Assembly: GCA_016873165.1 (NCBI GenBank)
Contig: VGXV01000009.1
Location: 1 to 64,000 of the forward strand
Reading direction: 5' to 3'
Length of the DNA stretch: 64,000 nucleotides
DNA from: Planctomycetota bacterium
GTDB taxonomy: Bacteria > Planctomycetota > Brocadiia > Brocadiales > Brocadiaceae
Below the pieces are notes generated by a model. The model ran no database searches and was not told the DNA's origin. It saw only the letters and a list, made by a program, of their open reading frames with translations. Made by a program: the position numbers and the translations under genes. Position 1 is the first letter of the stretch. Each line of letters opens with the position of its first letter. This document shows, in pieces, positions 45,114 to 51,669 of this stretch.

Positions 45114-45181
45114 ACCCACCCCTAACCCCTCCCAAGAGGGGAATCTGATATGTCCCCTCTTGGGAGGGGTTAGGGGTGGGT
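45114..45181. repeat. 29-bp perfect inverted repeat
   Basis: Arms 45114-45142 and 45153-45181 are perfectly complementary (starting ACCCACCCCTAACCCC) and separated by 10 bases. This C-rich hairpin, CCTAACCCCTCCCAAGAGGG type, would be very stable as RNA or cruciform. A smaller palindrome (GTTGGGTTTTACCCAAC) precedes it at 45084-45100. It has no T run and no adjacent gene end, so it is more likely a mobile palindromic unit than a terminator. Confidence 0.8.
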
Positions 45182-50529: not shown

Positions 50530-51036
50530 TTAAGGGATACCTCTGTCCCCCGCTGGCGGGGGATGAAGGGGGTGGACGACTTTTCTCTTTTCTCTTTCCT
50601 TAACCACGCATCGTATTGCCGCTATCACACCGTTCATATTTCTGCGCACATCGTCATCGGTAAACCTGATTACTTCAAATCCCGCCCGCTCCAAATCATG
50701 GGGTTTCCGGTTATCTTTCTCCGCGGTCTCCTCATACTGATGGGTTACTCCATCCACTTCAATCACCAGTTTTAACTCTTTACACATAAAGTCTGCTATG
50801 TAGCGTAATACCGGCCTTTGTCTTCTGAATTGATACCCCTTCATTTGGCCCTCACGGAGGACATATTTCCAAAGGCACGCCTCTGCCTTTGTCATTTCCC
50901 TGCGTAACTTATTTGCAAGGGGTTGTAATTTGTGTTGCAGGCATAATTGTTCCTTCCATTGGCTTTCACGTGTTTCTTCCACCCCCTGCCCCCGCCAGCG
51001 GGGGACAACGAAATCCTTCATCGAATTTGATCCCAT
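50530..51036 (-). CDS. DUF559 endonuclease-like protein inside a palindrome-ended element
   Basis: Up to 168 residues; start could also be 51021. The core is the DUF559 (Vsr/PD-D/ExK-like) domain: 'LANKLRREMTKAEACLWKYV', 'KGYQFRRQRPVLRYIADFMC', 'ELKLVIEVDGVTHQYEETAE' (Glu-x-Asp-Gly active site) and 'ERAGFEVIRFTDDDVRRNMN'. The first and last codons read through a perfect 19-bp inverted repeat (50544-50562 and 50989-51007). That repeat's outer edge coincides with the point where an older GxxExxY gene is cut. Such genes are numerous in anammox genomes, which suggests that the unit moves or is copied. Role unknown. Confidence 0.78.
   Translation of the reverse strand: MGSNSMKDFVVPRWRGQGVEETRESQWKEQLCLQHKLQPLANKLRREMTKAEACLWKYVLREGQMKGYQFRRQRPVLRYIADFMCKELKLVIEVDGVTHQYEETAEKDNRKPHDLERAGFEVIRFTDDDVRRNMNGVIAAIRCVVKEREKRKVVHPLHPPPAGDRGIP
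50544..51007. repeat. Inverted-repeat-bounded DUF559 unit
   Basis: The 19-bp sequence TGTCCCCCGCTGGCGGGGG at 50544-50562 and its exact complement at 50989-51007 bound the DUF559 coding core; each is followed inward by AGGGGGTGGA-type sequence. No flanking target duplication was found. The unit looks like an inserted cassette. Confidence 0.65.
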
Positions 51037-51202
51037 GATACACTATCGGTATAAATACCTGACGATCGACTGATATACCACATTGTTTGAACTCGCAGGC
51101 AAGGATAACTTCATAAACGACTTCAAGCAATCCCGGCCCAGATTCCCGATGCACTGCAACGACAGCATTTACAATAATCTTCCCAATCCCACTTTCATTC
51201 AT
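50966..51202 (-). pseudogene. GxxExxY family protein, truncated by the DUF559 unit
   Basis: From ATG 51202 the frame reads MNESGIGKIIVNAVVAVHRE, then the family signature 'SGPGLLEVVYEVILACEFKQ' and 'VDRQVFIPIVYHGIKFDEGF'. Homology stops after residue 65 (codon ending 51008), exactly at the inverted repeat of the DUF559 unit; the remaining codons are repeat-derived (CPPLAGAGGGRNT). Normal GxxExxY proteins have about 125 residues, with a PD-(D/E)xK-like second half, which is missing and not found on the far side of the unit. A family A MITE lies directly upstream. Confidence 0.75.
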
Positions 51203-51225
51203 ATTCTTTGCAACTGGTTTGTGGC

Positions 51226-51440
51226 AGGAGTATTCCCAGATTTTTGCAAATCCATCATTCTTGTTCCCAAGTTCCTGCCGGGGAACACAATTGTGAAGGA
51301 AGCTCATGCTTCCTGTTATGAGAAACGAAGTTTCTCAAGCAATTCCGTTCCAAAGCAAGATGCTTCACCTTGTTCAGCACAAGGCTTTGGAACGAGCCAT
51401 GGTCTCTTTTGGAATTTTGCAAAAATCTGGGAATGCTCCC
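51226..51440. mobile_element. MITE-like element, family A (copy 4, diverged)
   Basis: A 215-bp element with 24-bp terminal inverted repeats (left AGGAGTATTCCC, right ends GGGAATGCTCCC; arms 51226-51249 and 51417-51440, a few mismatches). The flanking octamers TTTGTGGC and TTCGTGTC agree at 6 of 8 positions, like an eroded target duplication. Its core contains further palindromic units (GTTCCAAAGC..GCTTTGGAAC). It occupies part of the gap 51203-51706; apart from the birA promoter, I see nothing else there. Confidence 0.75.
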
Positions 51441-51669
51441 TTCGTGTCTTCGTGCGATTACTTCTTTTTTAAATGATTTTCTGAGGAATGATTAGAGCAT
51501 AAATAAGGAAAAAAGCAATATTTTTTCATTTATTCCCCTTAGCAAAGCTTGCCTTTCTGCAGGTTGTGGGGTTATGGAGTTATTTCGCTACTCCAAATGG
51601 ATATGGTTGTAGTTTGACTTACCCTGTGTTTTTATATAATTCGGAGACAAATTTCTTTTAAAAATGATA

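Follow-up and report, generated by a model that had tools for sequence, protein, structure and literature searches.

Introduction

Among the described systems closest to the locus reported here is the combination of REP and REPIN sequences with RAYT (TnpA_REP), known as the 'REPtron', in which the REPs carry a GTAG tag (PMC3733652, PMC3116915). REPs with a CGTC tag have also been reported, without a dedicated transposase (PMC3733652), and the text of that paper, as searched, contains no link between these and DUF559. Further points of comparison are the EDxHD family of homing endonucleases, exemplified by I-Bth0305I (PMC3943268), and the Rickettsia palindromic elements (RPEs; reviewed in PMC10969869). 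DUF559 proteins are currently annotated as unknown or as generic endonucleases, and searches of titles, abstracts and combined terms in open-access journal papers found no link between DUF559 and repeats. Here, we describe a DUF559 gene bounded by inverted hairpin repeats in a 64,000-nt stretch of planctomycete DNA (the window) and follow the same arrangement through other genomes, where it looks like a so far undescribed class of mobile element.

Results

The DUF559 unit of the window has 19-bp inverted ends, TGTCCCCCGCTGGCGGGGG (50544-50562) and CCCCCGCCAGCGGGGGACA (50989-51007), that are perfect reverse complements of one another; taken as 28 nt, the arms match at 86%. The left arm (50544-50576, forward strand) is composed of the hairpin CCCCCGCTGGCGGGGG at 50547-50562, with TGT outside it, and an inward tag, AGGGGGTGGA, at 50567-50576, and is matched by a covariance model of hairpin plus tag (R1) with E=3e-4. 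The right arm (50978-51007, reverse strand) contains the inverted hairpin and tag, with ACA as its outer end at 51005-51007 (R1, E=1e-4). A reading frame of 168 aa on the reverse strand (50530-51036) crosses both arms and matches DUF559 (PF04480, E=1e-32) over residues 37-144, with the domain placed at 50605-50928 by the genome search; the only other Pfam match is a weak, overlapping one to MTES_1575. The frame has ATG codons at 51036 and 51021, beyond the right arm and over a neighboring GxxExxY gene. The preliminary description, which had a DUF559 frame with 19-bp inverted ends crossing both repeats to a start at 51021 in the GxxExxY gene, is borne out on each of these points. The core of the palindrome occurs twice in the window against an expectation of 0.09. 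Over the whole 4.05-Mb genome it is found at 15 sites (allowing at most one mismatch), as opposed to none for the reversed control pattern.

Beyond the right arm lies a truncated GxxExxY (PF13366) gene (51008-51307, reverse strand), of which only the N-terminal half is present. Its homology extends over 51008-51187, and the PF13366 match, restricted to model positions 3-62 of 117, stops at 51008, immediately next to the repeat edge at 51007. In a relative (G297) the homologous GxxExxY gene runs on past the junction point, and the window starts to align with it at CGAAATCC, 51009, next to that edge. The C-terminal half was looked for across the far side of the cassette and was not found there, and therefore the junction is one-sided, an insertion with loss of flank, and not a clean split. 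Thus, the earlier proposal that the cassette cuts the GxxExxY gene exactly at the repeat boundary was right as to the boundary, but not as to a clean cut. Between the truncated gene and its upstream arm is a dispersed repeat element (51227-51439, no strand assigned) with 24-nt inverted ends (96%), and most of 26 matches to the window's own genome fall in this stretch. The element matches many places in that genome and in the genome G195. Directly adjacent, at 51440-51455 on the reverse strand, is CACGAAGACACGAAGG, a repeat of the GxxExxY type described below; it is the sole match in the window, none being found in 50 shuffles, and probably represents the arm that the truncated GxxExxY unit has kept. 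The window therefore seems to hold two different nuclease units joined together, with a third, dispersed element between them.

The window's genome contains six DUF559 genes. The preliminary description had named two findings that would tell against its cassette, DUF559 genes that lack the repeat and a repeat that is common without DUF559, and on these the outcome is mixed. Inverted hairpin repeats flank all six genes, whereas the palindrome type of the window is present at only two of them and the repeat is common without DUF559. That TGTCCCCCGC bounds DUF559 genes in every case is not supported; there are several hairpin types, of which it is one, and each goes with a particular DUF559 subfamily. 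The hairpin sequence varies among the six copies and the plan is constant, with the hairpin outward and an AGGGG(G)-type tag inward. The closest pair by protein, the window copy and locus L001, both have the CCCCCGCTGGCGGGGG type. Another copy (L006) lies in frame inside an HsdS gene, between 48-nt arms of 92% complementarity.

In order to define how general this arrangement is, DUF559 loci were gathered solely on the basis of protein sequence; 80 come from GTDB genomes spread over many phyla and the rest from the window's phylum. Inverted arms with a score of 28 or more flank 72% of an initial 78 loci, compared with 1.0% of 1354 control placements at positions within the same loci. Arms flank 122 of the 150 loci of the full set (81%), a percentage that, like the others, describes the part of the family closest to the anammox query alignment, from which the 80 GTDB loci come, and not the family as a whole. 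A strict pattern, hairpin then AGGGG upstream and the inverse downstream, is present at 57 of 150 loci and at one of 1446 control placements. The shared design is a C/G-rich hairpin facing outward and an inward tag of consensus AGGGG(G); a typical unit of the common class reads TCCCCTCTTGAGAGGGG-TT-AGGGGTGTGT. Arm-flanked DUF559 genes are found in Bacteroidota, Cyanobacteria, Chloroflexota, Nitrospirota, Zixibacteria and others, and a plasmid copy in the cyanobacterium Pseudanabaena has the same unit design. Palindromic surroundings are therefore general for DUF559, as the preliminary description anticipated, but across many phyla and not as a trait peculiar to anammox genomes. Plasmids yield few DUF559 matches (36 of 72,556 records) and phages almost none (2 of 50,697). 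Detectable arms are absent at 28 of the 150 genes. One close DUF559 group without flanking arms belongs to Muricauda and relatives (L040, L045, L060, L065, L075, L076 and L095), and is possibly a fixed, vertically inherited copy.

Across genomes, arm similarity rises with protein identity (Spearman 0.43), a value reached in none of 300 Mantel permutations. At all 28 testable loci, the arms are nearer to arms of their own DUF559 subfamily from different genomes than to arms that accompany other subfamilies within one and the same genome. This shows that the gene and its arms travel together and by itself need not mean that the enzyme recognises the arms; the subfamily matching could reflect linked inheritance of gene and arms. 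The genes are under purifying selection, with a median dN/dS of 0.12 over 82 pairs, HsdS-embedded copies included, and residues E16, D46, E57, D59, H63 and D72 are 98-100% conserved in 151 DUF559 proteins. An AlphaFold2 model of the window protein is best matched by the DUF559 crystal structure 3HRL, then by I-Bth0305I and weakly by Vsr, and Foldseek aligned the model with 3R3P at E=8.5e-4. On this model, the nearest characterised fold to DUF559 is that of the EDxHD homing endonuclease I-Bth0305I, in support of the homing-like enzyme suggested at the outset.

The repeats also occur apart from the gene. They were counted with a pattern search and with R1, which misses some arm types (those of L003 and L006 and the CCCTCTCCC type), such that all counts are lower bounds. 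At least 106 hairpin-tag copies (R1, E<0.01) are present in the window's genome, mostly without DUF559. Among closely spaced pairs, 36 of 37 are arranged tag-out (tag-hairpin...hairpin-tag), as in REPINs. The window itself holds one such dimer without DUF559, tag-hairpin-6 nt-hairpin-tag at 45114-45181 (no strand assigned), made up of two R1 matches at 45114-45144 (reverse) and 45151-45181 (forward), E about 1e-10. Tag-in pairs are seen at wider spacing only, either flanking DUF559 or at two positions of contig C10. The latter, at 67160-67418 and 70541-71087 (L172) in genome G000, have no DUF559 and share similar inner sequence, with additional sequence inside the second. A MITE-like family (L261-L280), flanked by GGTTGGGTTTT and AAAACCCAACC, carries many hairpin dimers. 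The repeat copies are consequently not independent, because many dimers ride inside this larger family. One MITE copy in G088 (L282) lacks the dimer, and comparison of empty sites for the repeats in G195 and G088 is confounded by the dimer-carrying family. Throughout 294 genomes of the phylum, four or more repeat matches are present in 28 of 42 genomes with a strong DUF559 match and in 9 of 252 without; the Fisher p-values for this co-occurrence, 4e-21, or 4e-12 without the window's family, are inflated by shared ancestry. There are genomes with repeats that have no strong DUF559 match, and genomes in which the opposite holds.

DUF559 units are also found inside genes. In-frame inserts occur in MetH, HMG-CoA lyase, HsdR and HsdS, each with homologues that lack them, and MmeI-like and Eco57I-like methylases have DUF559 inserts as well. 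In Polaribacter MetH (methionine synthase), the insert falls between residues that are almost adjacent in the solved structure 3bul, query 426 to 572 corresponding to chain 94 to 97; likewise, in a planctomycete HMG-CoA lyase the insert lies between query 70 and 259, corresponding to chain 73 to 78. HsdR carries DUF559 at two different sites in different genomes and no insert in the window's own genome, and the HsdS copies share one common site, with the HsdS of G239 free of the insert. Two HsdR genes (L175, L176) have repeat-like peptides, for example PSPQPSPTGRGS, in frame at several further sites with no DUF559 there. The mobile coding cassette with a DUF559 nuclease that the preliminary description proposed is supported.

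Paralogous cassettes give some indication of where a unit ends. At some, homology stops near the hairpin's outer base (left edge at L140, right edge at L150), like the window junction; at others it reaches further beyond the hairpin. Beside L001, the window's genome has a truncated version of a gene that G088 has intact; here too one half is missing, and the truncation lies 33 bp outside the hairpin. In G088 this gene encodes 112 aa (L237, 1068-1406). A clean empty site for L001 was sought in relatives and none was found; the unit is absent there, but the flanks have changed too. The one-sided losses at the window junction and at L001 suggest that deletion of flank beside the unit is common. 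As regards the terminal inverted repeats and target-site duplication of a classical insertion sequence, inverted ends are present, and target duplications, sought at the window, at L001 and at the G088 MITE copy, were resolved at none of the three.

GxxExxY was to serve as a negative control for flanking arms and was dropped in that role, being itself positive with different repeats. Inverted arms are present at 27 of 29 full-length GxxExxY genes of the window's phylum (loci L315-L344), compared with 1.4% of control placements. These arms are mostly of another kind than those of DUF559, ACCACAGAGACACAGAGGACACAGAG and variants, of ACCACRGAG type. Because GxxExxY is itself armed, it is the control placements made inside the loci that serve as valid controls. 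We suggest, tentatively and as something short of an even chance, that small solitary PD-(D/E)xK-like nucleases form a class of mobility enzymes with at least two families, DUF559 with AGGGG-tagged hairpins and GxxExxY with repeats of ACCACRGAG type, each with its own inverted repeats, and that much of the short-repeat fraction of environmental genomes, including in-frame protein inserts, would be their non-autonomous progeny.

Discussion

We observe the association of gene and repeats, the polarity of the tags, the matching of arms to subfamily, co-occurrence, purifying selection and in-frame insertions absent from homologues. From these we infer that the repeats are acted on by DUF559 and owe their mobility to it, by the reaction outlined below. 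The most probable reading, held with some reserve, is that the locus is a REPtron-like mobile unit, consisting of hairpin-tag, DUF559 gene and inverted tag-hairpin, in which a nuclease of Vsr/EDxHD fold would take the place of the Y1 HUH transposase and act on the repeats. Nuclease and hairpin-tag repeats would form cognate sets that have moved jointly through many bacterial phyla, while the repeats would spread without the gene too, as dimers and monomers. The nuclease would recognise the hairpin and AGGGG tag, which may be extruded in single-stranded form as a hairpin, and nick or cut near the hairpin base; repair or replication may then copy the repeat, or the entire unit, into the broken site. 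Units and bare repeats could in this way enter intergenic DNA or genes, and some intragenic insertions stay in frame because, in the frames observed, the arms contain no stop. In the window, a DUF559 unit would have become joined to a GxxExxY unit, the 3' half of which was lost. The role of DUF559 would resemble that of RAYTs, as Y1 HUH transposases, for REP and REPIN sequences, or that of homing endonucleases for their introns.

The main rival to the REPtron-like unit is homing only: something else would spread the repeats, and DUF559 would cut unoccupied repeats, whereupon break repair would copy the DUF559 gene between them. A homing endonuclease provides the nearest characterised fold, nearby paralogous cassettes exist, and bare repeats stand in frame in HsdR genes that have DUF559 at another site, so the repeats could come first. 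However, the variation of the arms with DUF559 subfamily, and a repeat abundance that tracks DUF559, are easier to understand if the nuclease also drives the repeats, and we regard homing alone as unlikely, if still to be reckoned with.

There is a fairly small chance that DUF559 is a passenger, perhaps with a role in defence or repair, carried along with repeats that another enzyme, such as RAYT/Y1 or a MITE transposase, moves. Y1 transposases are present in 13 of 13 genomes tested, many dimers lie within the larger MITE family and several inserts are in restriction-modification genes. Nevertheless, none of the 13 Y1 genes of the window's genome is less than 10 kb from a listed repeat, as opposed to four of its six DUF559 genes within 180 bp of one, and the arms match the DUF559 subfamily, which is not required of a passenger. 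RAYT was also considered in its own right as the mover of the repeats and is disfavoured by the distance of at least 10 kb.

It is very improbable that the hairpins are terminators or RNA stabilisers for the DUF559 gene, unrelated to mobility; strong hairpins near both ends of a short gene would suit such a function, but the class is dispersed about 100 times without DUF559, occurs within reading frames too, and has a conserved asymmetric tag that faces inward on both sides. Finally, a local accident, in which a chance palindrome pair came to lie by a decayed GxxExxY gene through a simple deletion join, accords with the missing GxxExxY side and can be dismissed as a reading of next to no probability, since the architecture recurs at 122 of 150 loci and this genome has a second truncating junction, at L001. 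The tag, the dimers, the in-frame enzyme insertions and GxxExxY as a second family with repeats of its own all lie outside what the preliminary description anticipated.

If DUF559 is the cognate enzyme of the C/G-rich hairpin repeats of many environmental bacteria, as the REPtron-like unit would have it, their spread would be explained, as would the foreign peptide segments inside enzymes such as methionine synthase. DUF559 and hairpin-tag offer a pair of enzyme and substrate that can be tested directly, and the several subfamilies already provide swaps of specificity.

Comparison with known systems

By description, RPEs are similar in being palindromic elements that lie in frame in coding genes; they are about 150 bp in length, whereas DUF559 units carry a nuclease gene and their repeats are about 30 nt. 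EDxHD homing endonucleases such as I-Bth0305I (PMC3943268) appear, on the modelled structure, to share a Vsr-like catalytic fold with conserved E, D, H and D, and insert-free sites exist in homologues of the DUF559-bearing genes. Unlike DUF559, which is a single domain of about 110 residues, these are long multi-domain proteins with extra DNA-binding regions, and the DUF559 unit has no intron or intein and has inverted hairpins on its flanks. The CGTC-tagged REPs are likewise tagged palindromes without a known Y1 partner, but with another tag. The likeness to REPtrons lies in short tagged palindromes present many times over, in dimers that share one orientation and in a unit with a single gene between inverted repeats of the same kind, the gene standing between inverted copies of a dispersed repeat at 122 of 150 loci. 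Where a REPtron has a Y1 HUH transposase gene, the DUF559 unit has a nuclease of Vsr/EDxHD-like fold, and where the REPtron palindrome has GTAG at its foot, the DUF559 repeats have AGGGG(G); in-frame insertion inside genes is also prominent for DUF559 units by comparison. The DUF559 unit is therefore not a member of the RAYT/REP family, because enzyme and tag both differ, and by analogy it appears to work like one.
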